Below, piece after piece: positions 4,139 through 60,867 of a stretch of 64,000 bases of DNA; position 1 is the first letter of the stretch; the number at the start of each line of letters is the position of its first letter. A program made the position numbers and the translations under genes. The notes under the pieces were generated by a model. That model was not told the origin of the DNA. It saw nothing but the letters and a program-made list of their open reading frames with translations, and ran no database searches. This DNA comes from Branchiostoma floridae (taxonomy: Eukaryota; Chordata; Leptocardii; Amphioxiformes; Branchiostomatidae): positions 6,770,844-6,834,843 of the forward strand of contig NC_049985.1 of assembly GCF_000003815.2 (NCBI RefSeq). Direction: 5' to 3'.

Positions 4139-4230
<92 letters not shown>

Positions 4231-8873: not shown

Positions 8874-11800
8874 CTGAAATCGATAAAAGTCAAGTTTAAC
8901 AAACTGAACTCTTTTAGCATATCATACAATATAAAGACAGGAAATTTTAATAACATGTTTTCAATGGATATATTGCATTACTGTTGGTACACTTTTTTTA
9001 GATGCACCATAGCATCAAATCCAGCATAAGTCATTAACTTAAAAACTGAAAACTGATTGCTTTATGTGATTACTTACTTTGGTATGCCTTTTTGCTCTTC
9101 ATAGTTGGACATGGTTTCCCCTGACATGTGCAGATAAAAAGATAAAGATTGCATTACTGTAACATCATATTACCTCATAATCAGAGGAACTGGAATCAGG
9201 CAATTGCAGACAATTGCAAATTTAAGTTCTTATTTGTGTAATTGAATAGTGGGAAGCTCTATAATAATAATAATCTATCTAAGGATAATTACCTGCATGC
9301 CCAAATCATTTGTCATTTCTTTTCATTCATCTTGTTACAAAGTTCCCAGCAAAAATTCTAAACCAAGATACTAGTGGGCATATTCATTTAAAGAAAACTA
9401 TGTAACCTCTTGCTACCAGCCACCCAAAAATGAAGATAATAATACGTCCAGGACAAAGGAAGCAAAATTCACATCCCAAATACCTTTATCACAATGCACA
9501 TAGACTACTCCATCAAGAAAATGAACACAATCCGTCATTCACACAACCACACAGTATCCATAGTGTTACCATTTTATCCTTAGTGGTGAAGTTGATGTTG
9601 GTGCGGATAGTCCTGGAGTTCAGGTTACTCGTAGGCCTGAAGTTGTCTGCCAGGGGAGTCTCTTTCTGACCCATTGTGTTCTGCCATAAATTACGCAGCT
9701 GGTTCATCTGTGGATGGAACAGAAAAAAGTGTTGAAAACGTTTTGTCTGGCAATACATTAAAAAAAAAATTGGGTGCTGGAGAAGTCTGACATTGAGCAC
9801 AAACATAAATGTTGCAATGATAAGTGTGTGTCAGAAGGACAGTCATTGGTGAACATCTTACTATGTAATAGGATGTTAGTCTAGCAAAACAATTGCACAG
9901 GCCTCCAATGGTAAGAATATTTCAAACAAATGTCTTTGCCCTAACACCATGAGCCAGCCAATCAATGATGCCTTAGACCGTAAGCAGCATGGAAAAGAAA
10001 CCCCTGATTTGAGAAATGGACTCTGCCTAACTATCAGGCTGAACCTGAGACTGCTCTCAATTCCAAATTACAACATTGGATTGTAAAAACTTCCAATATT
10101 GTACAGTCCTGTTCATTGTAAGTGTAGGAGTGAGGAGTAGTTGTTTGACACCTCTGCTACAGCGCACCCCATCATCTGTTGTCTGCCACTGTTCTATCAA
10201 AGAACCCATTGATTTTGCGAGTCGAGGTCACATCGATTACTGGGTTTTCACACGATTGTTGTGCTAATCCAGCTTCAAGCCCAAGTGGCCAGTGAGTCGA
10301 TGATGGAGGGTTGTTAAAGTCTCTGTGTGGCACTTAATCTGAGTTTGCCTGTGTCATAAGGGCCCATGAATACCCACACCTGAATTTCCAATACTAACGC
10401 ATCAGCAAAATTCTTTCCTGCTTAGTCAATTTGCCTGAAAGTTTCCAAATAACAGTAAGCTCTCCAAGCTCCTTTCTCCCAAAAACCCTCATCTTCTATG
10501 ATGTTGTCAAACAGTGTGAGACTAACATCAGAAAACAAGCAACACACTGATACATTTGTACATGAGATATTCAGACTCTTAACTGATTAAGTAATGATTC
10601 TGCAAATTATGATCAACTACAAACTAGTAAACTGATTAGGTAATGATTCTGCTAATTATTATCGACTACAAACTGTAAGTATTTGCTTGTACACAAAGAT
10701 GATGTATGCATGCCAATTGGAAGCACCACACAAAACATGGAAATTGCCCCTTAAGATCTTTGAGTTAGATGCTGCATTTTTCAAAAATGCCTCTAAGAAC
10801 CTTTAAAACTCAAACTTTCTCTTTCTGCAACATGTAATGATGTTACATGGCTCTCACATCATCATCTCTAATCTAACAGCTGTAACTAAGAGAGATAAAT
10901 AGGCAGAACAGCATGAAATTGTTGGGTAGCCTCTTACAGGTAATTTTTGGCTATGATACCCTCCTCTTTTCCCTGAAACACCTATTGGTACCATTTGGTT
11001 AAGAAGAATTGATAATTGTCCTTGGGATCATCCAAAAACCTTTCCAGAGCTGCGATTTAAGTCAAGACAGAGATCGATAGATGTGTGCCAAAAACGGAGA
11101 AGGTTCTTGTCTCCAAGGCGAGAGGATCAAACCTGCTGCCAAGATGGCTGCACCTGGGCAATTATGTCTGATTGTGGTGACCTGAAATAACACAGACTGG
11201 CAGCAACCACAAACCCCTGCAGCTTAACCCTCAAGACTGTAAACCCTCATTCTTACTTCAAGCTCTGTTTTAAAAGAAATGTTAAGCATTCTGGCCCACA
11301 AATCAAAACACATTTTTGTACACTTTAGGAAATGCTAATAGATATACTGCGAGAAATCTTCAGTATCAATTTGCAATATCTGATGCTTGCTTATGTACAA
11401 AAAAAACAAGTACCCCTAGCAATTGAATTTTTTAAAACTTTGAATCATGCAATTATGGGAGCATTAAAACCAAATCTCTTGACATAAGACTGATTGCAAA
11501 TAAACATTTCCCAACAAGAATATGTAAAGTGTATCATTTTATTTTTCAATCATTATTTTTATGGAAGTTCTCTCTGTAGGTCTCTCATTAGAACAACAAT
11601 CCCTGATCCACTGCTGCCGACACTCGTCTAAGTCAGACATTCACCTTGAAATGCCCTTGATGTTGTAATTGGAACATTCCCCTCTCATGTGCCGGATAAG
11701 GTTGATATTTGTTTCCCATACAAAATCATCATCACTCTTTACAACTCAAGAGGGAGCTGTAAGGAAATTCCATGAAGTCAAATCGGAAAACGTACCATCG

Positions 11801-17800: not shown

Positions 17801-20800
17801 AATCTGTGCATGAAATTGATGAAAATTTGTTTTCAATAGCTTACAATGACAAATTTTGCAGAGAAAAATCAACAACACAGGCTTCCAAACAATCAGTGGG
17901 ACAGAAATTTTTTTAAAGCTGGAGACAGTGCTGGTGCAGACCAACAGTGTGATACATGTAGGTCTGCCACCCCTCACAAGGGCACAGCAAAGCGTTTCTG
18001 GCAACCCGACTACTTGCCCTTGTATTGATGTGAACAAGGTCGATCTGTCACCTTGATGACTACCTGGCCTTTGCGTTGACTCATGCACCCAGAGCCAATT
18101 AATCCAGCTAATTAATTACCCCATATTTCAGACTGGTAATGAGACCCTAGCCTACAATCATCCATCACCATCCTATCCACTATTGCCCGGTAATTAAGAA
18201 ACAATGAGGGATGCTTCTGCTTGCAATGCAAGTTCACCTTTTTCTGTGGGTAACCTATATTCATTGTTTCAAAAAACAAGGTACTTATGGGCATCATGTC
18301 GATGGACAGCAGTTTCAAACTGTACAAATGTGAAAATGTTGCAATTTGAAACCGCCGTCCGTTTACTTGATGTAACTAACTGTGTAATTCGTCCGTCTAG
18401 TCGACGAGGACCACTTTCGTCATCATCATTCCCTAACTACCCTTTGTTTAGAGACAACGGATATAGGTTACCCCACCCCGTGGATAAAGGTGATTTAACG
18501 TTACATTGCTGTTTTCTTTGCATTTACAACATTGAATCATTTCATTGAATACTTGTTCATATGTGTGATCAAACAGTATTATCCTTCATCTTATCTGATA
18601 AGTTGAATGTGATCTGTGATTTACTCAGAGTTGATACAGGTTAAGACTAAGATCTGTGGGGCATGCAGCCGGAATCCATCTCAGACTCTATCTTCTGCAA
18701 GTGAACGGATGGCTTAATCAGAATGGTGCGTCAAAAGCAAAGGTTTTCCTCCGAGTCTTTGAATGCTTTATCAACTATTATTAGAAACACGTCTGTTGAA
18801 GTGAGACACGTTCAATCATCCAGACTGATGAATGGGTAACAGTGTGGCAGGCAAAATTGCAGCGCAATGCCAAGGTTGTCATTTTGTTGGAGAGTGTGAT
18901 AACAAATGGAGTGGTGAAGATGAGAAATGGGCAAGATACAACAGCTTACAGGCTTTGCTTAAATTTCTTCTTATCACTTCTTCTGGACTTAAACATGATT
19001 TCACTGTTTGATATGGTTTGGTTTCAGTTCAAGAAGAGTGGCACCATACTGGGTCACATACCATCAAATTTTGAAGGTTCAAGAAAATTGTCACAAATGG
19101 TTTATTTAGATTTACTGACATTGTACATGTCATTAAGTGCATGTTACTTAGCAAAAAAGCTCCACGGACATACACTGGCAAGCAAAATTGTAGTGCAATG
19201 CCAAGGTTGTCATTATCTTAGAGTGGTGAAGATGAGAAATGGGCAAGATACAGACAGCAGCCTACAGGCCTATTTTAAATTTCATAAACTTGATTTCACT
19301 GTTTGATACAGTTGGATTTCAGTTAAAGAAGATTAGACCCATACAGTGTCACATACCATAAAATTTTGTAGGTTCAAGAAAATTGTTGCAAATGGTTTTT
19401 CTTTAGATTTGCTGATATTGTATATAAAGTACATGTTACTTGACAAAAGAGCGCCACAGTCATAAACTTTTGTTAAAATGGATCCAATTGAGAAGCTCAT
19501 GTAAATTAGAGTTAAGTTTGCCTCCCAGTTATGCTTGATTTGACTGTTTCCAAAAGTTCTGAGGCATCATCAAATAATGATCAATCTGCGGGGACTTTAT
19601 CTTACAGTTAGAATTGATTTTAGATGTGCATTTAGAAGTGGAGGCGCCAAAAGAATTAGCAACAGTCAGAAGACTTGGATAACTCTAACTGTTGCCGTCG
19701 TAAATTTTAAGGAGAGTCATCAGACATGCACATTGTAGAGCATGATGTAGAATTATAAATGTTTGGAATAAGAGATGCATGAGTAGAATGGCAGATTTTG
19801 ATTCAACTTTAGTTTTAAGATTAAATAACAGTTAGGCCACACTGACTTGATTACAGTTAAGTCACATGGACTTGATTATATGGATGACATCTGCACATTA
19901 CTGCAAACCGTACAAAGATGCTGCAAAATGCGCACAAAAACATATTGAATATATGAGCCAGATGTAAATTGTCAAACAAATATCAAGTAATAATATGATC
20001 AAAGAATTTCCAAGTCAGTTCCAAGGTCAGAGATGATGAACATGTGAAAGAATAGAAATAAAGAATTCATTGTTTGGTGCACCATGCACCAGTCATTTGT
20101 TCAACCCTCTGGACTATCATCATCATCGGTTGGCTGCTATGTAGACGATCGTAAGTTTCTTTCAGTTTTGTTTGTCAGCAGCAAGATGACAAATCTGTCT
20201 AGAGACAATCTGGCCATGATCTGGGCCAATTAGCAACTCCTTTCGCGAAACTCTTTTTCTTCATATGTCTGCATGAGTTTTGGGCTGCCCAAAGGATGTC
20301 ATCCACATAATCAGATCAGTATGGTATTTCTATGGAAACTAAAGAGTCTCAGAACTGACCTTTTTTCTGGAGATGTAGACAGGCTTGTTCATGACTATCC
20401 ATGTTACTGTTTCCGCACAGTCTGGGGAGGTCAACGACCCCTGGTAGGTCATGTAGTGGGGCGTGGTGGGGAACAGGTTGGTCAGGTTGAAGTCCTCCAC
20501 CCTAGCTGCAGAGCCTACATGGCAATATGTTCAACACAAAGTGCCAGTCAGATGATGGTCAACTTTAGTTATACGAATACTTCAGGAAAGGTGTCAGACT
20601 GTTCATTGCTATGTACAGGAAAGTGCAAGAATTTGTTTATCTTCATTTTCCTAAGATTGGTTAAGATGTACATGTGCAACACAAGGTACATAGATGGGGC
20701 TTTAGCATGGCAAAGGTTAATGCCAAATTTTGGGAGATGGAGGTAGAATAAATAGTTATGTGCTGTGAATTGCTATCACAAAATCTTCCTTGTGCATTTT

Positions 20801-23800: not shown

Positions 23801-26800
23801 ATTTTTTGCTTTTCTGCCACTTTCTTCCACATATGAATTTTCTTGAGCCTAAAACTATAAAGCGCAAGTCATGCACCTAAATTTAAAGTCAATACAACAT
23901 TTACAGCTCTACGAGGCTCCGCCATAAGGTCTTTCTGTGGTTCAAAGGAGAGGAGACATCACCGCTTACTGTGGAAATCTGGGAAGGCATCTTTTATTTT
24001 AGCCTGACATAAAGCATAGTGATGGTTTGTCATATCTATAAACAGTGACTTTCTATAAAGGGAGATTGTAAAAATGCTTGTCTTGTTGCATCAAGTACAT
24101 GAGATGTGACTATTCCAAAATCTATAGTGACAAAGTCCAATAAAGTAATCATATTAGCATAAGTGCAGCATGATAATTCCCCCATGGTTTCCCACTTAAA
24201 GAATTGGCACTAAAGCAAAAAATATACATGTCAAATTGTCTATGAATTTTCAGTAACAAGAAATTGTTTTGTAACTGTGACAGTTGTCTGCAGTATCAAA
24301 AAGCTGATATGATGTTGATTTCAAATTTCAAATTGATTCACAAATTTGAAAAAGCAAACTTAAGCTAGTACAATGATTTTACACTTTGTGATATTTACCA
24401 AGCTAAAAGTTTATCATTTTAATGTTATTCATTCCAACAGCCATGTTAGCTATTGTCTTTATCACAAGTCTATCAACAATAACTTTTTTCCACCATAAGA
24501 CAAATACTGAAACATAAATCCTTTGAGTAAACCAAATACGGCTTTGCCATATTCTCTGCACAGGAGGTGCCAGATCTTTTTTATCATCGATATTCCATAA
24601 AACTCACCAAATCATATTGAGGGAGACCATAAGAAGCAGGAGTATGATAAAACTCAATCGCGTGAGGCAATATTTTGTGATGCCGGGGGTTTATTCACGA
24701 AACATGATCTGACTTCAAGCACTGCATGAAGATCTAACTTTACAAGATAAACCATTCTCATATCATATATGGTGTGTGTTTTAATGCTGTATTTAGAATG
24801 ACAAAAATGGAAATGGTCTCGGTAAATGTTTTATCGATGGACTGTCCATTTTTTCTGGTGATAAAACTGTTTTTGTCACTTGTAAAGCAAGTCTACCAAT
24901 TTGTTCTATCTCTGCCTGTTCCTGTCCGTGGTGCTGATAATGTTATGTCACTTGTATATAGCAAATACTTGCAGGGCTTGAAATACCACCTGAATATGCA
25001 GGTTAGTGCAGGTAAAATAAAGCTGTGCAGGTATTTCTGGTGTCTACCTGCACCTAACCTGCACTGGGTTTATATATACATGTTTCATGATGAGGATTTT
25101 TACAAGCTTCATTGATTGTTACCACCTGTGAAGTATAAAAGAAATAATGGCAATGGTTTCTGAACAGATTTTAGTATGATCAATACTTTCTAAATTCTGA
25201 GTGGTGCAGGTAGAATGGTAATTTCCAATGTTACCTGCACCTGTGTAGGTATGCAGGAAAAAGTATGTTGAGCCCTGACTTACTATCAGACTGTCCCTGT
25301 CCGTGGTACTGAAATTTTAATTGTTCTTGTCTCCTACAAAACAAGTCTAGGGGTGGGATAATCCCCCTAGTGAGGAACTTATTGGAATGATGTCATATTC
25401 TGATCCCATGGCACTGTTGGGGGTAAATTGCAATGCAGACAGAGGTCATTGGCACTGTGTGGCAATATTTTTGACAATTCCCACAAATCCGACATTACAT
25501 AAATCTTGCAATAAACTGCCATTGTACCAGGTGCTGGAAGGACTGCTTTTGACCCACCCCTATATTTTAGAAACGTGCTCGATATATGCCCAAGACGTGT
25601 CAACCATGGAAAGTATGTGTTACAGGTTCAACTGTACAAGTCTTACATACAAAAACCTTTTAATACCTAGTTTCTGGCACACGGAAGTCTTAAAACACCT
25701 GAGCAATATTTAATGACACTTAAAAATGACAGTTATCAAGGTTTTGGCCTGCTTGCAAATATCTTTGTGAGTAATTGATTGCCTTAATTTTGCACATACC
25801 ATTAACGCATAAACATAAATTCCATAATTCACGCGGGGATTTACTTTCGTGGTAGCAAGAAAAAGGATTTTAAGTTTGCGGTAGCGCTATGGAATGTAGT
25901 TACATACTGTTACAGAAAAATGTACATACAACTACCGCAAACATTTCTGCATTTACAGTATTTAGCACTCCTGCTTTGCCCAATAAAGCTGTTTTCACAA
26001 GATACGAGAACTTTCATTTGATAGTTTTAATTTGATCCAGCTCGTAAGTTGTGCCTCGTGATTCCTAGCTCCATATGATGTGACTTCCCTGAGATTGCCT
26101 CCTCTCAATGGGCCATATCAGACATCTATCTCTCGGTGAACACTTTCCACAAAATGCCATCCAATAGCGTATCATAGCTCCTATCCACCGACAACCGTCA
26201 CTTCAATTTCATCTTAATCCTCCTTTTCCTGCAGGAAGAAGACATCATCACGATTTCCTTGAGAAAATGAGGACAGATTGGTTTCCTCTGCTTGCAATCT
26301 TCATATATAGATGCCGGGCCTGTCTGGATGCTTGCCATTCAATTATACATGGACCGGTGCTGAATTGTATCTCCCCTCGGAGCCAGAGGTCGCCGCCGGG
26401 GTCACATCTATTGAGTTTCCTAACGAAATGTCTGATATCATCGCAAAATACATTTCCCTTATAGATCGGTCCCATGCATACAGCGGAGGGGCCGGAAGTG
26501 GGACAGTAGGGAATTGGACTTCTTTTCCAGGGAAGTTGGAAGATTCCACTGAAGGATTAGATTCTAGGGGAAGATGAATGTTTGGTCTGACCAATAGGGC
26601 AATCCCATAGCCCTTCCAACCTCCGTGCAAAAGCAGAAATGCAAAATAAAGACATAAAGATCCAAATATTTGGCGGACACATTATCATTGGTCAAGCTGA
26701 TAATTGCCCTGCCATGATTGGTTGAAATGCAAATTGTGATGGACAGTCAGGATTGGTCAGTGGCTTTTGATGGTTTAACTCTAAACCCTGCTAATATTAG

Positions 26801-29800
26801 AAGCTTCTAATGTTAGTCATGTAGATAAGTCCACAGTGATGAGAATATCAATGTAAGCAGTGCTGTGAGTTGGATTTCCATTATCAAGCCACGATTAAGA
26901 TTAAGCAGAAATGGCACAAAGGCAAATAAGTCAGCTGATTCTTTTTTTATGTGCTAAGTTAGGCTTTAAAAACAGCATTAACGAATTGTGCTACAGTCAT
27001 GGGGGCTTCAAAATTGAAGCTATAGATAGTCTAAAGTGACCCAAGTGCAGAAAACAGGTAGAGTTTCTAATGAAATTATACCATTTTTCGGCTGTGGTAT
27101 TAATCTTAACATGAGATGACTACATGCAATGGCAGGACACACACTTATACCGTTTGGTAAATGGACATGTTGAAAATGGACAGTGAGGGAGAGAGCTAAA
27201 GAAAAGGAAGCAGGAAGACAGGAACTTAAGTTCATGATCCATGTCCTCACCTTTGTATGTGACGTTTTGTAATCTGTCAGACCACAAGAGTTTGTCCAGT
27301 TCTGGGTTTGTTGAATTCCCAATCTGTAAGGTAAAAGAGAAAGGCATTATTTGAGATATTTGCACAACCACATATGCATGATTCCTTATTACATTACATG
27401 CCTTACCATTAGTAAAGTACCTGTATGTGAGGGCTGTCTCCAATGTTAAATTTTGTGCCACTGATTTTGCTTGGGAGCCCATGTTGTTAATTTTGTTGTT
27501 AAATCTGTCATGGTAAGCTTACAACAATACATTTTCACCAATTTCATGTCATGAACTGGATGAAAATGTAATTTGGATGGACGGGGTTGGGGGTTAGATT
27601 TTTTTGGCTGAAGAAGCAAAATTCTGCTTTAGCAGTTGTAAAACTTAACCAAGACCATTGCAAGCAATATGTCCTTTCAGCAATGTTTTGGTATCAAATC
27701 TCTTCTTAAACATGTTGTAGAAATTAGAAAGCCTCAACAAGAATACATGGATCTGAAGCCCTTAATACCTGGAAGGAGTATTTGAAACAAGAAATCTTTT
27801 AAGAAAAGCTGTGCATTGCTGCGTATTTTATGACTGAACTGCTGAGAGCGACACCTAGCTTCTTCAGTAGGAAATGCAGCAAAAGGGGATATTGGAAATT
27901 TACCTCATTATCATAATTTATGTCACATGAATTATTGGCACATTAAACAGGTTTTGTAAAACTTTTTGACCCACAATGAATATGCATTATTTTTCATTAC
28001 AAAATAAGTTCCTTCTGATGCAATTTGTGATATATCTTTATATAAACATGGTGAGTTAAAGCGTAGATTTATTACGCTGGACCACATACAGTAACATGCG
28101 TCTAGAAGAGAGTTTTAATACTCGCCTGGAATGTACCATTGTCTAACTAAGCAATGAAACTCGGCAAGGAAAGAGGGGCCTTTGGAAGGGGCTTTGGAAG
28201 GGCTAGGTTAAAAGGTCCGTCCATTGATCCAACCATGGAAGAAAGCTGGCATAAGGCATTGCCGCTGGCGCGGCAATGCAAAAAACTTTCAGGATGGTCA
28301 CTTCCATACAAGATTGATATTAGCAAGGAAATGTCAGAAGTAAGCAAAGGGCATTCAAAGCTGCCCAAATGGCACATGTAAATACTCAGAGTAAATGTCA
28401 AAACTACAAAGATATGCAAGTTAAAACAACAGGGAAGTACAATGTACCATACTGTAGTATGTATTACATGTTTGTACTGAGATCTGTAGACCTAAGTTGT
28501 ACTTAGTATTTTGCTTCCATCCCACTGAAAGCTCCTAAGGCAACATCAATTTTTCAGACTTGGTTTTTGGATAGGCCTGTCAAAAATTTTGCGATTAAAA
28601 TGTAAAATAATCTTGCACCAATAGCGGATATCTGATGGGTGTAGCTTCAATTCTGGCAGCTCTCATGAAGACAGTCCCTGTTAGCCTTGAGGTGGGAGGA
28701 AGATGCCAGGTAATAACTCTGGCTCTTTGGTTTGAGTGATTTGCAGTGAAAGCAATACTGAGGGTTTTGTTTTCCCCAACAGCAATGCTATTTGAAAACC
28801 ACTTCTTGAGTCTCCCATATTGCTGGAAGCTATCCAAAATATCCTGTGGCTGACAGTGCTATGTTCAGTAAGTTCTATTCACAAAGGATTGATTGACAAC
28901 ATCCTACAGTCTTGCATTGTGGTTGGAAGTTTCAAAGTCTGAAGGTACAGTTCAAGAACAAACCTTAATCTTACTTTTGTCTGCCAGGCTCTAATCCACA
29001 TTTTTTATGATTAACTCATATTATCACAAACTCCAAGAAGTCATCATAAAGATGACAAACAAGTAAGATCTATCTAGTCAGCATCCCTTTGGTACTAGCC
29101 AGTACAGTTTCCATCATGTAAGGCTGACAATTCTGTTACCACTGGAGTTTCAAATCTCTGTGGGAAGCAATATATGCATAAAGTTTTCAGTCAGATAAGG
29201 TTTAAGTGCAGATGATGGAAAAAACACCAAGAGCAATTGAGAGTGGAGGGAATTGTCAGCACCTACCACAGGAAGACGCATAACAGTAACAGTTTCAGCA
29301 CTAGGGACAGGGACAGTCAAATTTTTTATGAGCATGTATGTAGCCTACAAAATGCCCGCATTATTCTTAAAGCTGTATAAGTATGAAGTTGCACATCATC
29401 AGCAAAATTAGCGGGTTTTACTTATCAACCTAAAGTGTATCAAACAGCTTTGTGTCTAGTTCATATCAGAGGAATTAACCTTACATTGTATCTAGGACAA
29501 ACTCTCTTTGATTGATATACTTTTGCTCTTTCCTGTCATTAACAGTCTGACTTCTTTCTATCACAGTCTTGGTATTAACAGTCTCACTTCTGTGTATCTC
29601 AGTGATGAAGACATCTTTTTAAAGTGCCTTTGAAAAGCATTACAATATGAGACAGAAGGGCAAAAATATATTGATACGATAATAGGCTACGTTATTACTT
29701 TACAAGAACAGAGCACAGCGTTTGAATTAAAGTCCCTAATGTAATATTGCAGTACTGTGTTTCCATCCACTGGTGCATCCATGCATCCATCCATGCCCTA

Positions 29801-31603: not shown

Positions 31604-34600
31604 GCACAAATACAAATGTACAACTGCTTCTAAAAAGAAAAAAAAAGCATGATAGAAATCATGCATAGCAAAATAAAAACAGTTTCAGTACTAAGGACAA
31701 TCTGAGCATTAGAGTAAGCTGATAGACATAATTCACTGACATGAGAGGGACAAGAACAATTTCAGCACCAGAGACAGCAACAGTCTGAGAGTTTAACAAA
31801 GTGATAGACCGGCTGCACAAGAAATAATAACAATTTTAGCACCAGAGACAGGGGCAGTCTTATAGTTAGAAAAAAAGTAATAGACTTACTGCACAAGAGA
31901 CAATAACAATTTCAGCGCCTAGCACCAGAGAAAGGGGCATTGACCCACAACACAACAGACAAGAACAATAAATTTTCAGCACCAGAGACAGTGTCAGTGG
32001 ATTAGGACCAAGTAATGAACATCCTCTACAAGAGAGATGAAAACAATTCAGCACCAGGGGCAGGGACAGTTTGTAAATCAGAACAAAGAATTCCCCTACA
32101 AGAAAGACATCAGTTGGAAGAATTTCAGGAATAAGTTGAGACTTGCAGACTCTTTGCACAAGACTTTCTTTGATACACGCTATTTTTGTAGAAACTTTCA
32201 GTAATAAGGACAAGGACAATCTAAGTGTATGGCAGGACGATGGTCTTTCAGCACTGGAGATAGGGACAATACAGTAGCCATACACTTTTGGCATATGCCA
32301 CTAGATTTACCAATCAAATATGCTGCAGACAATGTTTTGATGATATGACCTATTAACCTAGGGACCCACTTTCATAATTGCTTGGAACATTGTCAAATTT
32401 AAGAAATATGTACACATCATTAACCCTCATTAACTTGTTAATTAGATACAATCATGGCCCAGTTTCAGACAGCCCCATGGTACCTCAGTAAGCTTTTTAG
32501 GTCATTTGCATTTACCTTTATCTAATTCTTACCCTTACTTGAAGAGATTTTTGTATAGATTCAGTTAACTCTCTTTAGGTATCAAAAATACTGAAATATC
32601 AGTGTATTGATAAAGCTTCCTGTACAAATATTGCTGGTACATTTCTCTAATCATTAATTCTGTAATATCAGGAGTTCAAAATTTAAAGAAATCAGATATG
32701 TCTCACATTTATTCCTGCTTTCAGCATACATCCATATTCAAGGCAGTAAAAAGGCATAGTGAGAATGCGCCAGTGATACGTTTTTGAATAATACAACAGC
32801 ACTTTTGGCGTACTCTATACTCTGAAGTTGAGGCGCATGACGAGGTAAACTTCCTCTCGGCTGACAGGAGTCTTAAATCTGATGACTATGGTTGATGCTT
32901 TCATCCCCTTTCCTCTTTAATGGAAAGTTCTGGACTTGGGGGGAACATTTGCCTGTAGGCTGATGGATTGCAGCGATTTACGTGTCACCCAAACAGGAAG
33001 GGAGACATGCGTCCCCCCAGAAAGGGTTGGATCACAAATGGCGGAAAGGTATCAGCAGGATGCAATTCTGCATAGTTTGATGTGCGAGCCGACGCTAAAG
33101 TACCACTAATTACGGCTAATTGTACCTGCCCAACAGCACTTTGCTCCCGTAACAATGCTACACAAGGCCAGCGGGGGGACTTGGGACTGTAAAAGCGGAT
33201 GTGATATACGACATATTCCTCCGCATCACGCAGATCCAAAGCTTTGGGAAATCGACCTCCTCAGTACCAATTTCTCTGGCACTACGTTTGATGGTGGATG
33301 TATAGATAAGATCCCTCATTGCAAGACGAATCGATAAGGAAGGTAAAAAGACTAATGTACGAGGGAGGGCGGCAGGTCTCTAAAAGACAATATCATGGCC
33401 CAAGGTTAAAAGTTACATTATTTCTGCACTCCGGAGAGAGGAGAGATCTATTGCATAGAGAATTCAGATATAAAGCAACATGAGCAAGCAATAATGGCTT
33501 CTCAAATGCAGTATGAATGGAACAAAGGGTCATTGAAATGACAATGATGGATTTTACATGAATAGAATTGATTTTGCAGCCAAAAATATTGAACTTTTCA
33601 CTTAGTCTTAGAGATCATGCCACTTTTGGCCAACAACAGTTGCCAAAATGGTCCAGATTCCAAATGACTCAAGGGCTGAATAGTTTAGCATAACAATTGA
33701 TGAGAATATATATTAGAATCCACCATATCAATACATCAAAACCTCTGCATTACTATTTCTCATGATCTGTTATGTATACATATATTGGACTTGTTCCTTA
33801 CAACTTCCATCATAGCTGTGACCTATAGTGAACCTTGCCTATGGCAGTTTCTCTTCAAAAGCAATATTGGATATTTTGTACCAAAGCCATTTATTGCCAT
33901 ATTACTTCCAATGATTTGTGGCTATTATAGATGTATAATGTAACTTTGAACAAAAAGATTTAGCTATATTTGTGACAGTTCTTACATGCCACAGGCGTTC
34001 ATGTGAACATGTTCCATTGCACAGTATGCATCCTCATTAATGAATTTTTTGTTGCCAAAATAATGTTTGGCAGCAGTCATACTTTTTAGTATATCAGTCA
34101 GAGTGGATGTTCATCACATCTCTAACATCTTCCTTCCGTTACTATCTATACATGTAGTTGTTTGACATCAGTAAACCGGGTAAAGTGGGTAAGAGGTGGA
34201 AATAAACCTCGCTCAATATGCACAGCCTGCACTGGGGTTTATCACGGACCGGTGCTGAATGGGGTCCACCATTAGCACCCTATTTTATTGTTCTACCTAT
34301 CGACTCAAGATTGTATCCAGAAATCCAGCTATAAAGAGCAATCTCTGAAGGCTGCAATCTGAGAGGCACTGTGCTCCATGAAAAGAAACACACCACACGT
34401 ACATGCAAATTACCTCCTTATGGCCTTTAACGATGTTTACAACGTCAGAAATTACTCAACTGGCTTTCAACGACATTTATAGCGGCACCAGAAATTACTC
34501 AGCTGTTTGGAAGGGATCTCGTGTGTTCTAGTTTCTATTTCAGTTTCCAAATTAGCCAGATAAAACATGTCTGAATAAGGTCACTGTTTGACAGAAGCAA

Positions 34601-37600
34601 AGAGCAGTACAATACTATTAGCTATACTCTAAGTAGTTTATTGGACTTGAATGGATCAAGGGATTCCTCTCAAGACCAATGCTTTTTAAGTATTGAATTA
34701 TTTCTAGTGCTTGTGATCTTATGAAAATCATAGTTATACATCTTTTAATCATAGTTCAGAGTTTTCTGCATGAATATAAGGCAGTAATAAAGACGTGGCA
34801 TAATCCAAGTAAGCCTAAGTTTCTAATCTTTAAACCATCTTTAATCTACAGCTTCCCAGGGATCCCAAGTCCCGCCTTCCATCAGGGCATGTTTTCTAAT
34901 GAGAAATACATGATAACAAGTTGCCGTACTTTGCTCTGCTGGTGATCATCTCTGGCTCTGCTCAAGATAAAAATTGCATGACTAGGGGAAAGCCATGATT
35001 AACCACATGAGCAACGTTAACAGGGAAAACATGCAAAGACATGATCTAGGATATATATAACTCTCCCAGGATCGGTGCTCAATTTTCAAACCAATTAAGA
35101 AACTAATCTGAAGTATTGGCGCTTGGAGGTTCTCAGCATAATTTGAACTCCTGTATATCCTTCTTTCATTGGTTGATAGAAGACTTTTTCCCCACTTGGC
35201 AGGGTATTACTAGAAAGTACAAGACTTGGAGTAGTTGGCAGTAACATTGAACTTTCATCTAAAATGTTACAAAAAGTTTAGTGAAACTTAACATAGGCCA
35301 AGTTTTGTAAGGAAAAAAATGGAGACTCTTATTCTATTTTTATCTAGCAATATGATGCAGAAGCATTTTTAGATGTATTTTTGTATGTTGTGTTTTCTCA
35401 AGTAAACAAGTGAAATTGCCATATTCTCTTTTCATGACTTGCAGAGTTTTAAAAAGGTCAAGGTTTAATAGTCTTTATGAGGTCGTAGGGGCAGTGGGTT
35501 GGTAACCACTATGTCTACGGCACCATATTGGAAGGCACCCATTGCTCTCATTCAACTGCCTCATTACCTCCCCAACCAAAGGTACTGTTGCCCATTTGTA
35601 TACAGCTGGGAGGAGTTGGAAAGTGCCCAGACAGCAATGCCAGGAATCAAACCAGTGACCTCTCGATCTTATGTCCACTAGTCTAGTCACTCAGCAATGT
35701 TATTCCACAGGAGAGTTTACCACTACATTAAAGCAAGTCTACATGTATCACCTACTTTTCTAGCACCTGCTAAATAGATTCATGGTTCATAATAACGTCT
35801 TTAAGTTGATAACACCCCATGTACATCTGAGACGAAAGCCCAAAGCTGTCTGGTTACATATAATAGTAATCATGTTTGGTGCCTGGAGTTTGACAGTGGA
35901 AATTGCCCAAATGCCAAACAGGATCCACTTTTCATTAACTTCATCCCAGAGGCACCTTGTTTGCATCCATGCAATTGGTGATGTGAGGGTCTGATACAGT
36001 ACTTCAAAGAAGTCAGCATAAGTTTGAATTATGACAAGTTTGACAAGTTCACAAGCCATAACAAGCCGGTAAACTCAAGCTCATATCGTTCAAGTTAAAA
36101 GACTGATTTAAATTTGTAAGAAGACAAAGGTTTGTGTCCAACTCAGTAAAACAATTAGGAAAAAACGTTCATTGTTCATTCCATTCCTCTTTTAGTTTTT
36201 GTTTTGCTAGTTTTACATCAGGTACTAGAACCACTCCGGTATTAAACCAGCTTTAGACATACATTCAACACAGTTTTGTAATGTGAAAAACCTGGATAAG
36301 ACCAGATCATATACTGATAAATTTAAACAATAAATTAAGTTTAAGTCAATTTCCTGAATCCAAATTGCCCACCTGTATGAAGAGAGAGATGATGGCAAGT
36401 CCACTGGTGCCTTTGGTGGCTTCCGCCAGGTCCCCGTACAGGTCGTAGTTGTAAAATAACAGCTGCAGCTGGAGGGAGCAGACAACAGGCATGTTAGTGT
36501 CACTAGTCTCATACTATGAACACATCACAAACAAGCATGTGCGGGAACAGGTACGCGGCCTTACTGGCCCTCAAGAGCCACTCCAACAACAGTTAAAAGA
36601 TGCAAACTGCAGTGGTTTGGGCATGTTACCTGACACAACAACCTGGCCAATACAATCCTACAGGGCACTGTGGAAGGAGGGCGTCGTCATGGACGACAAA
36701 ATAAAGCTTGGCATGATAACATCACTGACTGGACGGCCTTCAGCTACAGGAGTGGTTAACCCTGGCTAGGGAAAGACGAACCTGGAGGCTACCTTCTCCC
36801 CCCTAACGACCTGGAGGTCAAGGGACTAGGTAGGTAGGTAGAGTCACTGGTAGCTTTTAACCGCTGGAGTCACTGGTAGCTTTTAACTGCCACAGAGGCT
36901 AATGGTAATGGACTAATCCTGCTGAACACCATTTTAAACAAATAGAGCCTGCTATTCTACTTTGAACAGCTCCATCAAAAACAGCCTCAGTGGGACAGGA
37001 ATGTCCAAAGAACAGACCAGGACACACTAACAATCATTACCAACTTACTTCAATACCTCAGAGTGTTATGAATATACACTAAGGTAAAAATTTCCTGCAG
37101 TTTTAAACATAACAATTTCTCTGCAGATTATTTCCCATAGCTCTGTGATTGATAATGACCATCGGTGCCTCCTCTTCTAGTCATATTCACATTTATTGCC
37201 TTGGTTTGATTTGCCCACAACATTCTAAAATAATGTAATATTGATGGGAATAATCTTCAAACATATGATTCTGAATCATAAAAAACTTGTTCATGGATAA
37301 CAGTTCTATATAGCTTGTCTATTTATGGATAAGCTTGTTCATAAAGATCTTTATCTTTAGCTACAGACTAGTTGGGCAGCCTTGGCTGTATATGTGCATC
37401 CTGTGTGTGTGTGTTTGTATGAACAGACGAACCAATGAATGAATAAATAAACAATATTGATACTAAAAAGCAGTGCACATTCTACGGTGAAATTGAACAC
37501 TCCATAACATGAATGGTGTAATGCTACATGTATATCAGAGAGCCTATACTTAGGTACAAATGTAGGTCTCCTTCTCCCAGCATCATTTAGCTGTGAGTGT

Positions 37601-40600
37601 TCTCATAAGCTCAGAGGAAATGTGACACATTTCAACACTATCATGGCAGCCCCTCTGCATAGAAATTGGCATGTCTGCCACTTTATTGCTGTTTTACGCT
37701 GCTCGTCAACAACGGAGAGTTTTACAGGCTAGAATGACAATATCAAGTGTCTTGCTGAAAGCATTTGAAATATCTCCCTACGTATCTTGAATAAATGACT
37801 AAATGGGTTGTTCATTGCCATGCAATGTTGCATTTGAAAAGACTTAAAACTATGGAGATAAAACATGCCATCATCTTGAAGTGTCACGTTCCCGTATGTC
37901 TTGACTCATGCACAATACATGAGGTTAGGAGAGATTGACGATGTTAATCATGTAATAAAGGAAACACAAGCCTGTAAATCGGAATCACCGCCATGAAAGC
38001 TTCAAGTTATGAAGTAATATGCTATAAAACAGGTAATAACGATACAATAATAGGTTTGGATTTCATAGACAAGCATTTTCGTAATGGTGGATTTATTACT
38101 ATGAACTTTTTGCCATGATAATTACAGACCAAACCAATCAAAGCTCCATCAATACTATGAAGCTGAATCTGCAACAATTAGGTTTTAATTGTTATGACGT
38201 TAAAGTTGACCACTGTCTCTTTTCAATCACTATCAAACACAACGAGAGGATGAGCAAGATATTGAGGTTTTATTGAGTATTAAGAAGACAATTTGCAACA
38301 TCCTGGAATGTATTCATAATCACTATTGTTATAATATGCATGATTTTATCTGCAAGGCATTTGCATAATTATGTTGTCCTCTATTGTGACATTTCATGGC
38401 AATAGTTTTCTGACATAGCATGTGTCTAAAGTATGCACCATGATCTTTAGTGGCCACAGTTTACAAGCCTTAAAATACTGGGTGCATTTGCGTCTAAAAT
38501 TGGAGTTGTGTAATACTATTGGCTGTAATGTAGCCAACAAAAATTGGTCAAGTTTTAGATGCTTCTTGTAGTGATTTTAATCACATCAAACCAGAAAGAA
38601 TAAAATATCATCTTACAGGATACAACACTCAAATCAACATGTTGTTTGTGTCATTTTACAATTAATATCATCAGTATACACTACCAACAGTTTGCTCCCA
38701 ACCATGTAAATGACCACTCCAAAGCTCATTTTCATGATTGCCTTTGATGGCCTTTTCCCGCTCATTCATTGCATACAACTATCTACTCATCCATCAAGAA
38801 ACAATCAAATGAAACCGTCACGAGAGAGTCAATCTGTGCACTGCTTACTACTTAAGATTGATGAAGACCATCCATTGGGAAAATGAACACAGAATGACTC
38901 CTCATCACTGTATGATGTCCATAGATGATCCGAGGCTCATCACAGAGGGAAATTGGAGTACACGTGTCCACAGGGTTATGGGCAATTATCAGCATTCTCT
39001 CCCCCGTTTATTGATTCTTAATAGCTATAATGAAAGGGCACATTATGGCCTAACTTGATTAAAAAGTGGTGAGACTCCCAGGTAGAACGGCCAGGCAATA
39101 ATGAAACCAGTAGTGGAACAGTGCTAACACTGTCTGAACATATGCTAATAAGACTTTATCACCATTAGGTGTTGCAGCTGATTTACTGGGGTTCATGTGG
39201 GGTTCAGCTTTCTTTTGACAAAGATTTGGACCACATACTGTTGGTATACATATAACCAATGTATCATGTCTTTGGTGCTGAACTGTTGGCAGGTAGTATA
39301 AAGTGTTCCAATATTGATGGTGTGCCCAGCACTTGATCCACTCAATTTGAATTTGTTGTAGCGCAGAATCCTTAATAAATCCCGTATCTTCCGATCAGGC
39401 TGATCTTCCATGACAATAGATAGTCATGACTGTCTACTTAGTCCATGGGCCAGAGGAAAAATCGGTACCTCCGAGGTGGCAAATTCTCCTTGTTATTTTT
39501 GAATAGTAGAAGGCCTGTGGCATATACATGTATTTTGACGTGATAGCCATTCTGGTATGGTAGCTTTCTACCGGCTATCAGCCTTCAAACCTATCACCAC
39601 CTAAATGATCTGGAGATTTCGTGTCTTAAACAAGGGGGAGGGGCAAAAATTTATGCCACAGGCCTTCTACTATTAAAAAATAGCAAGGAGAATTTGCCAC
39701 CCCAGAGGGTACCGATATGTGAAATTTCGGGTGCTGGCCCATGGACTAACTGTCCCCAGTCAGACTATTTGATATATGTCAGTTTACGCTTGCTAAGGAT
39801 CAAGCAACTTATTTAGACATTATACATGTATTTTTGTAATCTGTAAAGTATCAGTTATCTGTAAGACACTGCATAAAACATGTTTTTGAATTCTTTTGTC
39901 TAAGAAGACTTGGGCAACCACACACTTCTTTTAATGACATTGATTGAAAGAGACTTCGTTCTTGTGGAGACTGCCTCAAGTGGTGAACACTATGAAGGTA
40001 CTGGGAGAACTTATGTCTACTTCACCAGAATATCTAATATAATATTCCAGATGAACAATGATAACACAGAGGAGGAAGCTCTTGGGTTTTCTTTCATTTT
40101 CAGTAAAAATATTTTGACTGTTGGACAGATTCTCAGACTGTACAGAAGTCTGTTATATTGCTGACATAACAAAATCCATCTTACAAGGATGAGGTTCTGA
40201 AAGTTTGCCAACAGTGATCTTCAGATTCTATCAATTGGTACATTTGTATAATGAAAGTACATGTAACTTATCAAGTTCCCAAATTTTTAGAAAAAATGGA
40301 TTACGGTAGCCCAATTTCTGAAGTGTGTGACAGGCTTCACGGGTGGGGGGTTGAGGCTTTCCAGCTTAAACACCTGCAATTTATAACATGGGGCTTTAGC
40401 ACAATTTCATGGATGTGCAATTGGCCATGGAAAGTATTCTAGATTCTACTGAGTATTCGGAGCAACAGCCTGTATTGACCTTCCTTTGACCTTTTTCTGA
40501 CCTTTCCCAATTGTTTGCACCGATCTAACAAGCTGCTGCAACGAAAATCAATCTTCTCGTACAGACAGGGTAAATGGTAATAGTAGGGTACGGTAACCTA

Positions 40601-43600: not shown

Positions 43601-46600
43601 AAGTGGGGCACCTACAAAGAGAACAGGTTTTCTTCTACAAAGAGAGAACAGGTTTTCTTCCTTTATAGAAAAATTCTAACACTTAACATCCAACAATAAA
43701 ATGAAACTATAGGGACTTACCATTCCAAACACCAACATCAGTGAACTTTCATGCTAAGGCTTTCTCCCAATAAGATCTAGAAAAAAATGTTGCATTTTTG
43801 GTTCCCCAACCAACCCTAGCAAAACCCTGCCTGCCCTTTTTGGGTAATCCACTGGCAATCGTCATAAAAGTTTATATCTGAGTGACGAATTTCAAAACAG
43901 ACTTAAGTTTGTATATCCGACACTCTAGTGACAGATTTAAGATTGAACAGTTTTTTTTTCAAAAATGTGTAACACAATGTTTGTGTAGTGCATGAAAACA
44001 TTGCACTTCTTTGCTCAGTTTATCAATATAACTTGTGCAATGTATTCCTGTACAGTTCCAATATGACGTTGGAAATACCAGCATCCTGATGCATTTCAGT
44101 TTAACATCATTTTTACAAACTGTATTTGCTAGATAATTTAGCCATAATCTAAAAAAAGAAAGGCTGTGAGCTGAAACATAACAATGGGATGGTGCCTGAT
44201 GAAACAACAATAAAAATGTCTTCTCATGTCCATCTAGAGATGCTTCTTGAAGAACTAATCTAAATCTTGGTAAGATTGCTAAGACTTAAGAGGATTGCTT
44301 TGCTTTTTGCAGTTAATCTTAGCACAGGTAAAAGTCTTCAGGGCCAAACATCAAATAACTGTTGAGGAAACAAGAGACCATACTACATCCAAACCAAATA
44401 CAAAGCATGACAACTTTATTGGAAACAAGAGCTCAGACTGTCCAAGGCATTTTAGACTATCACCACTGCCTGCCACCCTGAGCCATTTCACACAAATCAG
44501 CCTCGGCACCTGACATTTCCACTTGGCAACTTCCAGCGACAACTCAGTTGGAACCACTTAATTGGCTTTCTCACTGTGCTGATGCGGAGAAGGGAATTGG
44601 AGGATACAGGATTTATTAAGAATTCTGTGTGACAACAATGAGTGGATCAAGTGTTGGGCACACCATCAATATTGCAACACTTCATACTACCTGCCAACAA
44701 TTCAGCACCAAGGACATAAAACATTGGCTAAAAGTGTGCCAACACTATATGGTTGTGTTTTCCTTGGTTTCTTTGCAACTGGCATGATACAATTAACCAG
44801 ATCTTTCCTTTAAATTGTAATTTTCATTTAATCTTTTTTATTATCAGTCAGCATCCTAGCCATCCAGAAATTTGTTGCTGTCATCTCAATTCTGTTTGAT
44901 ACAAAAGTACAACCAAAAATACTTTTCCAATCCACAGCACTGATTTCCATCATGGCAGTAACTGCTCCACCCTATGTGCTACTGCCCACCAGTTGTAGCA
45001 AAAGATCTTTTCACACAATTTTTTTTCTGTCAAAGATGATGAAATGGGCACAATTTTTGTCTGTCACGACCTCCAAATGCCGTCAAATGACAGACGCTTC
45101 CTAGACTACTGATTGCATTCAGTTTGATGTTTAATCTGACAATCTAAAATCAGTGGACACAACTCAGCCAATGATAAATCCCAGCTATTGCTCCTGAAAT
45201 ATGTACCAGACTCTGTTTTGGCCATTCTCCAAGGTTGGACATTGGATCACATTTGTCTGTCTGGTTTCTCTATCAATACGGGGGAACCTCAGACACATGA
45301 GCAGTCCTGCTCATGTACCTGAAGTCTCAGTTATCCATCAAATAAAAATGTCTNNNNNNNNNNNNNNNNNNNNNNNNNNNNNNNNNNNNNNNNNNNNNNN
45401 NNNNNNNNNNNNNNNNNNNNNNNNNNNNNNNNNNNNNNNNNNNNNNNNNNNNNATACAGCGAGAGAGAGTAGGTTGAATTGTAGGCTGCCCTATGTAGAA
45501 CAGGGTCATGGTTGTGATAGGCCATTTTCATTAACCCTCTGCAATCTTGAATTTCAGGTCATTTATCATCCTGATGGTAGGACTTAACCCAGCAGAAACA
45601 AATATAAAATCAGAGAATGAATATTCACAGGGTACATGTAAAAAGACAGGTAGGCTCTGTATATCAATGGTTTGTATATTACCTAACAAAGGCAATTTTA
45701 CCAAAAAGATGTTCATTGAAACCTTTTCAAACCACAATCCAAAAAAAATCTTTCCTGACAAGCATTCTTGCAAGAGCTATCTACTACCCAAAAATCATGA
45801 CCATATGCTGTTCAGAACACAAGATATCAAAGGTGGACAGTTTGCTGCAGTACCAAGATAAGATGCCAGGTGCCAAAAATCAAATGATTTGTCTGCTAAA
45901 CCAAGACCAAACCACGTACCAAATTTCATAACAATACAGTTTAATTTATATATATATATTCTGGAGTAATGCAGCTGAGGCACATACATTTATGCAAATG
46001 TTCTCCAAAACATAACCTACGTGGTAAACTTAATCAAATAACCCTCCCCAACAAAGTTTACTCAACAGGGCCATGGTAAAGTGATCAACACTTTGAAGCT
46101 TAAAACTTCATTGCAAGTCAATGACCTGCGATTCTTTTAATGAATATCAAATTTAGTTTATGGACAATAAACGTATAATCCTTGACAGGTATCACCCTCT
46201 CCTTTGGCTGTAAACTTGTGAATACAGCCTTTTGGCCACAGATTCCTGACCTTTATCTACCCAAACGTATGTTAATCATAAAACCCTTACATAATATGCA
46301 GAGATTTTGTAAGGATAAGAGTCAGGGCAGCTTTAAATGGTCATCAGTACAGGGTCTGTTCAGTGACATTTCTCAAGACACAATGCATCATCAAGTCCAA
46401 ATTGCTTTCTTTAATGAACTCTTCTGCCCATAAAGGAAAGGTGGGCTTTTATAGATTTTTTTGCATTTTTGACAAGTGTGATATATAGCATTGGGTTTGA
46501 AAGTCACCTTCCCATGAAGCTTGTGCATCATATTGCTTTTCATAAAAGAGATTAATAGATTATTTTCTATTCAACAAAAGAAAGAACAGAACCATCCAGC

Positions 46601-52600: not shown

Positions 52601-55600
52601 ACCTTTAGGTTTTGACATATTCAGGCCTGTGGACAGCTGACGGTCATTTTTCACCCTAATCATCGGCATCAGCCATGAGGTATAATGCTATGGCGTACCC
52701 TGTAATGAAGTGTAATCTTCCTACTGAGGACTGTTACTTAATTCTGATGGGTTGAGCGCATCACTGAACCTCTGGCATTTGGATCCCTCCCCTCCATCTT
52801 AGTTGTGATCTGCTTTTATCAATGTCCAAGTACATGTAGCATACAAAATGTCAAACAAACAAGAGCAGTCTACCACTCTAAAATCATGACCATAGCTTCT
52901 GTAAATAGTTTCATCAGGTTGGTAGATCAATTGAAGAAAGTCTTCTTCGTTACACAATCTTCTTTTAATTCTTCCGTAATCAATTCTTACAGAAGAATTA
53001 AAAGAGGGTAGTGTAACGAAGAAGATTTTGTTCAAATCACCATAGCTTGTCCAGAACATGTGATATCAAAAATAGAAGTTCTTTTGCAGTACCCAGGATA
53101 GCTGCTAGGGACTCAATTCTAATTGATGCTTTGATAGGACATGCATGGCGTAACCACATAGGCCCATACCAAAATTCATTACAATCCATCTATAGCTTCT
53201 TGAGTTATATATGCCAAATACAAATGGACATGCAAATGCTATCAAAACAAATCTACTTAGCAACAGAAAAATAAACAAAAACAGCTTTATTGCAGATAAG
53301 TGAGGTGTATTGGAAAGCACAAATGTGAAATTCTGTTTTACCATCCCTCAGAACTTTGCCTGAAACAGCAAATCACGTCTCCCAGTTTGAGATATGGCAC
53401 ACTTCCACAGACCTGCCATCTACCCAAGATTACCACCACATGGCCTAACAGTTAATCAGCCTGTCTTGGCTCCAGGGCTGCTTATAAGATTGATACATGT
53501 ATTATATTCCAAATGGGAGTTAAAGTGATTAGAGGTGTGTAGGAGATAGGGTGGTAAGAAACACCCCAGAGGACAGAGTCTTGCACGGCTGCAATACTAT
53601 ACCAACGCAGCCAGGCAGAAGATAGTGGTAGGGATATAAAGCCAGAGGCAGTTGATTAGGCCTGGAAAAATCACTGTTGTGTTTCCAAGTATGGCCCAAT
53701 AGGATCAGTAGGCAGGGATTCTCTTTTTTTTAAACTTTGGCCAAACTGATAAAACTGTATCAGGACATTGGCATTTTCAATATTACAAATATACAGAGAG
53801 AGATATACATTATACAAGGACAAACAAACAGTATATTGTTAAGTATGTCAACTATTCAAAGCTTTACTATGTTAGAAGGTTGTGCAATACAGGACAGTCT
53901 GGTTTTCAAGGCTACTTGGAATTATGTTTTGCAAATTTCATCACTTAGATGCAAGATCAAAAATGTCCAACCCCTCCTCCATCTCCCCAAAAAAGCTAGA
54001 GATTTTGCCAATTTTTGAGAGGGTAGGTCGGGTAATGGAAAACACAAAATCCTTTCCCACTGCCTTATGGCTGCATGGTAGGTGATAATGAATGGTGGGT
54101 AATATTGGGCACATCAGCATAGCAATGCCCCCTAGGGGGTCTTAGGTAGGCAAGGAAATGGGCCCTGCCTTTTGTTTTAGAGAGTGCAGCTGAAGCATTA
54201 GGCTGTGCATTACCACCTGGTATCTGAAAAGATCTGTGACTGTGTGACATATATACTCTCAGCATGTTGGTAAGGGCCTTCAACGTCAGGCATTGTCTGA
54301 AGAAACATTCTGTACTATAGGAGGGATGGTTTACTTACCTGATTAACCATGATAAAAGTTTTTGATGGGATTTAACAGTTTTTCTGTACTGGGGCAAGAA
54401 ATTTACCCCCAAAAATATTGATTGATAGATTTGGGGAATAATGTAGATCAATACTTAGATGGACGAATATCTAACATGAATTTTTACCATTCCAAGATGT
54501 AATCTACTACAGGAAGTGTTTGATAGCTGCATTTACTCAACTTCATCAAGGTTACAAATTACTCTTGGATATATTCCAAGGTGCAAGCAGGGAACACATG
54601 GTCCAGCTTAAGGGCCTTAATATGAACATTAATCATTACTCAATGTAGGGAAGTGACAGTAAGCTTGTTGCACAACAAAAGAAGATTACATCCAATTAAA
54701 GAAGACAATGGAATCAATTTGTTAGTGTCTTGTAAAGCCGATTGCATGCTTATCTACAGTGCGTATTGACATGTTTGTAAGTGACAATGATGGAACTAAA
54801 TCACATGAGGTAGTGCTGGCAGAGGATTCCTATCAAGGAATTGAATCCACCAGGGAAATCACCAGCATGCAACATCTACAGGTACTTCACTGAAGATCTG
54901 CTAATACCCTCATTAGTTTACACCATAATTGCTCTATTCTCTGCTGATGTGTTACAGGAGCTTAAAGATGGTTACTGGGATTACGTTTTCAAATGGCTTC
55001 TCAGCAGTCTCTGTAATTCCTTCACAGAGTACCAAACAAACAAGTGAAATATCATGTTTCGGGTGCTGAGTAACACCCCATCTTATTTTTATACAAATGT
55101 ATACGCCAGTTTGAAACTAACTAAAAGTGGTAGAAAATAAAGTCAAACTTAAGTTGCTCTGCTACACAGGACAGACTTTCTCTTGTGCACAGAAGTTACT
55201 TATTTCAAATTTTGAAAGTAGCTGGAGAAATGTCCAGGAATAACCAGGTGATATTCAGGAGTATCAGTATAACCAGGGTTTCAGCACCAAGGAGAGAATA
55301 ACAAAAGTTTCAAACTGGTTACCTGTTGTTATCTGATATTATACATGATGTCAAGATAATGAAAATGATGGTAAGCTTAACATTTAGAATTTCATTAGGA
55401 TAACAACTGTATTACCTTTGTATTTTAGCCTTTGATAGGGAAATATGTAACCAACCAAGGCTGCCACCACCCCACCGCACCCCATCTATGAAACCATAAT
55501 GCCACGTGACCTTTGACTGCTATATCACATGACTACCCTTCAGAGCTACAGAAAGATTTTAGATGCCTTCTGAAAGCTGTGTGTTCTTAATCCTTAGCAC

Positions 55601-56068: not shown

Positions 56069-56159
56069 CTGAGGAGGGAGGAGGGCAACAGAGGGAGAAA
56101 CATTAGTTCATATTATCACAGACTCAGTCACGTGCGGGACAGTATTCTTCAGAAGTAGA

Positions 56160-60846: not shown

Positions 60847-60867
60847 TTCAGCACCTTGCACAGAGTC
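60847..60867 (+). promoter_or_regulatory. RE1-like site
   Basis: TTCAGCACC exact, spacer TT, then GCACAG (one mismatch to GGACAG). Flanks do not resemble the array family, so this could be a chance match. Confidence 0.25.

Follow-up and report, generated by a model that had tools for sequence, protein, structure and literature searches.

RE1/NRSE-like sites in tandem arrays and dispersed loci of an amphioxus genome: probable homotypic clusters for a putative REST-like zinc-finger protein

The RE1/NRSE site in described systems and in an amphioxus carbonic anhydrase-like gene

REST is best known from vertebrates, and the consensus of the Drosophila protein Charlatan is more degenerate than RE1. 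According to passages of PMC4430910, the 17-bp vertebrate NRSE consensus NTYAGMRCCNNRGMSAG yields 742 sites in Xenopus; the same passages cite 1,301 human RE1 motifs, describe the last four nucleotides of the 21-bp motif as lesser conserved, and give a single motif for 80 to 90% of the vertebrate target genes. Human atypical RE1 sites silence with spacers of 8 to 9 bp only, as stated in an excerpt of PMC9903721. Outside the vertebrates, Drosophila Charlatan and the nematode proteins SPR-3 and SPR-4 are presented as NRSF counterparts in passages of PMC4777549, where an RE1 probe was shifted by Charlatan extract, and a Ciona gene served as the outgroup of a REST-family tree in a section of PMC4332667. 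The insect and worm proteins are a precedent for a non-vertebrate RE1 reader; unlike the case described here, no arrays are described in those passages of PMC4777549. Our search of the literature, with subscription journals largely outside its scope, found no report of RE1/NRSE sites in amphioxus; REST counterparts in insects and worms have already been proposed there (passages of PMC4777549).

Analysis of a 64-kb stretch of amphioxus DNA (referred to as the window) revealed a tandem array of about nine degenerate RE1-like units at the place where the original prediction had put it (Table 1). The claimed repetition at 75 bp was correct in that the units follow each other in tandem, but the steps vary between 50 and 83 bp with no constant 75, and TRF recognized only 2.2 copies (31749-31916). 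Three units (31761, 31975, and 32047) carry an exact left half TTCAGCACC, and the right half carries one or two changes, as had been claimed; TTTAGCACC, one change off the left half, is exact in a fourth unit. The 17-bp core is complete in none of the units. Three come closest, with a single mismatch each, and the array lacks the GCC found at the 3' end of the 21-bp RE1. By inspection, NTYAGMRCCNNRGMSAG fits the units at 31761, 31835, and 31975; the unit at 32047 does not fit it, with a G at position 14.

The array is surrounded by carbonic anhydrase exons on the minus strand; its neighbors are exon 36471-36349 on one side and exon 27338-27246, a weak match, on the other. The label CA10/11 rests on a human CA10 query, which matched four exons at 44 to 52% identity (E≤3e-7). 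Pfam recognized carbonic anhydrase in the 55.9-kb and 20.5-kb exons, and a PDB search gave, among the best 60 of 211 matches, other carbonic anhydrases only. The neural-type host gene that had been proposed is thus supported, by way of the CA10 query, by CA10/11-like exons on both sides of the array. Elsewhere in the window, an open reading frame at 4229-4819 encodes a sialyltransferase domain (PF00777, E 1.9e-24) and is adjoined by a GT microsatellite at 4127-4227. A minus-strand open reading frame at 22361-22975 gave a GIY-YIG match below threshold (21.1 bits, cut-off 22.6); we take it to be, perhaps, the remnant of a Penelope-like retroelement.

Table 1. RE1-like sites and CA10/11-like exons in the 64-kb window
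Feature	Position	Strand	Remark
Tandem array, about nine degenerate RE1-like units	31684..32270	+	intron of CA10/11-like gene
Unit 1 core	31684..31700	+	3 mismatches
Unit 2 core	31761..31777	+	1 mismatch (GGACAG to AGACAG)
Unit 3 core	31835..31851	+	2 mismatches
Unit 4 core	31918..31938	+	start approximate; 5 mismatches to 21-bp RE1 consensus; partial left-half repeat inside
Unit 5 core	31975..31991	+	1 mismatch
Unit 6 core	32047..32063	+	1 mismatch; followed by second GGACAG
Unit 7	32120..32136	+	placed by spacing; core lost
Unit 8 core	32197..32217	+	5 mismatches to 21-bp RE1 consensus
Unit 9 core	32247..32263	+	3 mismatches
CA10/11-like exon	55877..56071	-	CA10 query, Pfam, PDB search
CA10/11-like exon	36349..36471	-	E 3e-7; upstream of array in gene direction
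Probable CA10/11-like exon	27246..27338	-	weak match, E 0.088; order correct
CA10/11-like exon	20342..20509	-	CA10 query, Pfam; next firm exon after 27338-27246
CA10/11-like exon	9573..9710	-	CA10 query; Pfam 25.5 bits, under cut-off of 27
Dispersed RE1-like site	24922..24938	-	1 mismatch
Dispersed RE1-like site	25297..25313	-	1 mismatch; followed by second GGACAG
Dispersed RE1-like site	29294..29310	+	1 mismatch; followed by second GGACAG
RE1-like site in short dispersed repeat common to 44701	39266..39282	-	2 mismatches
RE1-like site, short repeat as at 39266	44701..44717	+	1 mismatch
Dispersed RE1-like site	55280..55296	+	1 mismatch (GGAGAG)
Dispersed RE1-like site	60847..60863	+	1 mismatch

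In the whole window, TTCAGCACCNNGGACAG at up to three mismatches matched 22 times, compared to 1.16 matches expected, and none of 100 dinucleotide shuffles of the window reached 22. At up to two mismatches, 12 sites were found, whereas 64 kb of this genome contain 3.1 on average. Eight of these 12 lie outside the array (p 0.015, for a window chosen for its array), and two of the eight (39266 and 44701) seem to derive from a single dispersed repeat. The relatives claimed at 24.9, 25.3, and 29.3 kb are real, with one mismatch each, and a further dispersed site at 16.6 kb (16592) has two mismatches. A tandem repeat of 4.4 copies of a unit of about 207 bp was also observed at 14848-15769; it contains the core-like words ATCAGCA[CT]CATGGATAT at 15026, 15233, and 15652, and a closer word is located at 16592.

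Number and degeneracy of the sites in the genome

The genome searched comprised 513,431,437 bases in 431 contigs, and all pattern counts refer to copies, arrays included, not to independent sites. The exact pattern TTCAGCACC-N0-2-GGACAG was found at 7,460 sites, compared to a single one in the backward-read control. The core with its 2-bp linker occurred 25,016 times at up to two mismatches (control, 593), and the published consensus NTYAGMRCCNNRGMSAG matched at 11,350 places (control, 65). The first 100 consensus matches listed group into 43 clusters over 4.85 Mb; extrapolated to the whole genome, this would give about 4,550 clusters. A scan of a viral collection, used purely as a yardstick of rarity, gave 103 stretches. 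At 1537035-1537101 of contig C1, the motif itself is repeated head to tail: four matches to the consensus, each reading TCAGAACCAC(A/G)GACAG, follow one another at intervals of exactly 17 bp.

These counts bear on the idea, raised in the original prediction, that a single chance RE1 match was later amplified as a satellite. Any word can ride a single satellite, but the difference between 7,460 sites and one in the control, the similar differences for the other two patterns, and the lack of related flanks at many loci refute it on the genome-wide scale and leave it hardly credible.

The likeness to the vertebrate site also extends to the tolerated substitutions. A decoy pattern, equal to the RE1 pattern in degeneracy and in the kinds of base changes but placed at other core positions, gave 8,328 matches versus 167 in the control, compared to 11,350 versus 65 for the RE1 pattern. 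Since the exact core is included in both patterns and accounts for no more than 7,460 matches, at least 3,890 variants occur at RE1-tolerant positions and at least 868 at decoy positions. Among single substitutions counted once per locus (n=52), 22 were RE1-allowed and 4 decoy-allowed; RE1 allows 9 of the 45 possible changes (p 2e-4). Nine of the 22 RE1-allowed changes fall on position 1, the motif edge, and without the free ends the comparison is 13 versus 3. The claimed RE1 likeness thus holds genome-wide with a vertebrate-like degeneracy.

Alignment of 60 loci, which left out the 8 array loci among 69 and L041 (a 1-bp-linker site only), revealed an A at linker position 10 in 52 of 60. Beyond positions 1 to 21, no column of these non-array loci exceeded 0.24 bit. 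The vertebrate consensus does not cover the commonest single change, C6 to T (8 loci). As 11 of the 60 aligned loci had been picked for their tail, the tail figures come from a set of 57 loci that includes arrays and counts a single site per locus. G is preferred at position 18 (31/57), position 19 shows no preference for G (15/57), and there is a modest excess of C at position 20 (23/57) and of C or T at position 21 (43/57). No enrichment was seen for the GCC that ends the 21-bp RE1, which 93 of the 7,460 exact sites genome-wide carry, and the full 21-bp RE1 was therefore rejected as a conserved unit. In summary, the amphioxus sites resemble the vertebrate RE1/NRSE in the half-sites TTCAGCACC and GGACAG separated by 2 bp, in the fit to the consensus, in similar tolerated substitutions, and in the A that mostly occupies linker position 10. 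They differ in the unenriched GCC tail, the G at position 18, the common change of C6 to T, and the many tandem arrays, in a genome in which no REST was recognized among the candidates scored.

Such numbers could also be expected of an architectural or insulator site of CTCF-like abundance, bound by an abundant zinc-finger protein whose RE1 likeness would reflect shared specificity and not neural silencing. The site number is far above the 1,301 human RE1 motifs cited in passages of PMC4430910, and large polyzinc-finger gene clusters are present. On the other hand, the tolerated substitutions match RE1 and not a generic word, and the host gene is of a neural type, though it is one gene picked for its array. 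We consider the insulator explanation unlikely.

Half-sites 3 to 18 bp apart were found 197 times genome-wide, compared to 3 times in the control; a count that required an NNCC tail (14 versus 1) was too small and was repeated without the tail. The first 100 of the 197 listed matches correspond to 75 locus-and-spacing entries. Among these listed matches, 31 entries have a spacing of 8 bp and 19 a spacing of 7 bp, and the other spacings that occur have 1 to 3 each. The excess at 8 bp is partly explained away by a duplicate GGACAG behind a canonical site, since in at least 27 of the 44 spacer-8 matches listed a second GGACAG comes after a right half of canonical type. Neither of the two spacer-7 loci that were read belongs to this type. 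As with the human sites in the excerpt of PMC9903721, certain non-canonical spacings (here 7 and 8 bp) exceed the others, but the second one is 7 bp instead of 9 bp and spacer 8 is largely due to the duplicate GGACAG. The parallel with human atypical spacing is suggestive, not proven.

Flanks of the loci and preservation of the core

Two samples of loci were compared. The first comprised every exact site in the match list for the interval from 0.41 to 7.98 Mb of contig C1 (40 loci), and the second comprised 29 further loci chosen from the match lists. Within the fetched stretches of the first 40 loci, one or two cores (up to three mismatches) were found at 26 loci and three or more at 13, and one locus had only a 1-bp-linker site. 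The number of cores per locus ranges from one to about 46 (L015), and arrays with periods of 24, 40, 43, 51/56, 66, and about 75 bp share the core.

Comparison of the flanks of 68 loci with core-like words masked revealed only two pairs at E≤0.001, L020-L037 and L031-L065, and left 64 of the 68 in no pair; the sampled loci were compared with each other and not with a repeat library, and the short linkers of arrays cannot reach the threshold. In a less strict earlier comparison of 39 loci, several array loci were linked, and some of the minisatellite arrays, judged by these alignments, form families. By eye, L013 (C1:832743) and L067 (C8:7313377) have the right flank GCCARTTGTTCCTGAAAT in common, and one of their sites is the canonical TTCAGCACCACGGACAGCGCC. 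Inspection by eye of the surroundings of nine CGCC sites revealed four copies in L069 that may be coding.

It might be argued that the sites are carried by transposable elements. Besides the two flank pairs and the linked array loci, the sites at 39266-39282 and 44701-44717 of the window share the flanks CTGCCAACA...TTCAGCACCAA...ACATTGG and are likely copies of one short dispersed repeat carrying the core. Two flank pairs among 68 loci nevertheless argue against a transposon as the general carrier, which is unsupported in the sampled loci with their mostly unrelated flanks, and we regard this explanation as very unlikely. The mobile or expanding family that had been suggested therefore fails as a general account but is likely for 39266 and 44701.

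The cores of hypervariable minisatellites and PRDM9 sites have been proposed to promote duplication or recombination. The RE1-like core could similarly drive its own spread: as the core of a minisatellite, it would favor recombination or duplication in tandem and would play no part in gene silencing. Such minisatellites resemble the present case in having arrays of differing unit length around one short core, and both the diversity of periods and the 13 loci with three or more cores agree with this explanation. By contrast, many loci here are solitary or hold few copies (26 of 40 have one or two cores), their flanks are mostly unrelated, and the shared word already has a known regulatory role and a vertebrate degeneracy that self-driven spread would not predict. 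This explanation is quite improbable in our view.

In the window array, with units defined by position only, the core had an identity of 0.837 and the flank 0.547, and only 3 of 56 overlapping 17-bp windows reached the core value. Four further arrays (L023, L026, L030, and L032) gave 0.91 to 0.93 for the core and 0.60 to 0.76 for the flank; the values for these sampled arrays lean towards the core because units were anchored on it, whereas that for the window array does not. The young array L015 had a core identity of 0.96 and a flank identity of 0.92, with 15 of 27 windows equal to the core, and in the young array L038 13 of 31 windows matched it. The core thus outlasts the linkers in old arrays, and young arrays differ little. 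A core diverging as fast as its flanks, named beforehand as a result that would speak against the prediction, was not seen between copies of old arrays, in which the core is kept better; in young arrays the difference is small.

A core-masked model of L023 detected 12 copies at E≤1.1e-7, 11 of which have a core (up to three mismatches) and one of which has lost it; two weaker copies (E 1.6e-4 and 0.0033) are also without a core. At 188-2608 of L023, eleven cores are located 148 to 408 bp apart, mostly with GGAAAG, GGCAAG, or GGGAAG and not GGACAG. Near L023 on C1, at 2.91 to 3.02 Mb, GGAGAG is found repeatedly in matches to the consensus. These may represent a local variant of the site.

The genome-wide excess, the mostly unrelated flanks, the core that outlasts its linkers, and the RE1-like degeneracy support selection for a REST-like reader. 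We regard it as probable from the sequence that the array is a homotypic cluster of RE1/NRSE-type sites, of which the genome has thousands, kept for a REST-like multi-C2H2 protein. A segment with one site would have been duplicated in tandem to give the array, and the linkers would then have drifted while the core was retained. The predicted protein, with multiple C2H2 zinc fingers and a REST-like specificity, would bind these sites by reading the half-sites TTCAGCACC and GGACAG 2 bp apart.

Candidate readers and the origin of the RE1 code

Searches with the human REST fingers ZF2-8 and ZF2-4 gave generic polyzinc-finger genes, with identities of up to 54% among the matches listed, and the best match is itself a generic finger array. 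With identities this low, the genome does not resemble that of a vertebrate possessing an ordinary REST gene. The check for a REST orthologue that had been called for therefore recognized none among 150 candidates scored per search, which is not proof of absence. The Pfam family PF24540 does not discriminate, because about 50 other listed places pass its cut-off outright.

The C-terminal finger of REST, ZF9, binds CoREST. A search with ZF9 gave one match, at C4:20253624 (E 0.037), in which 15 of 30 residues are identical to human REST ZF9 and a stop follows. The gene at 20.25 Mb of C4 has about nine fingers, with exons joined by eye, and its seventh finger scored 29.5 bits, above the PF24540 cut-off. 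It was not accepted as REST, as its fingers share about 30% identity with REST ZF2-8 and PF24540 is unspecific. Dense polyzinc-finger gene clusters were observed on C158, C200, and C323 and at 22.3 to 23.1 Mb of C10; such clusters are a possible source of new DNA-binding specificities.

More tentatively, the RE1 code could predate vertebrate REST or have evolved beside it, and it could be used on a larger scale in this non-vertebrate chordate through a putative zinc-finger reader that need not be a REST orthologue. The RE1 minisatellites, including one in a gene of synaptic type, might then serve as silencers with multiple sites. If sites of this design are far more numerous in a non-vertebrate chordate than in human, and tolerate similar substitutions, the DNA side of neural silencing would predate vertebrate REST or have evolved beside it, and the origin of a textbook network would become testable. 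Arrays of one to about 46 sites would provide a natural series on the relation of site number to repression.
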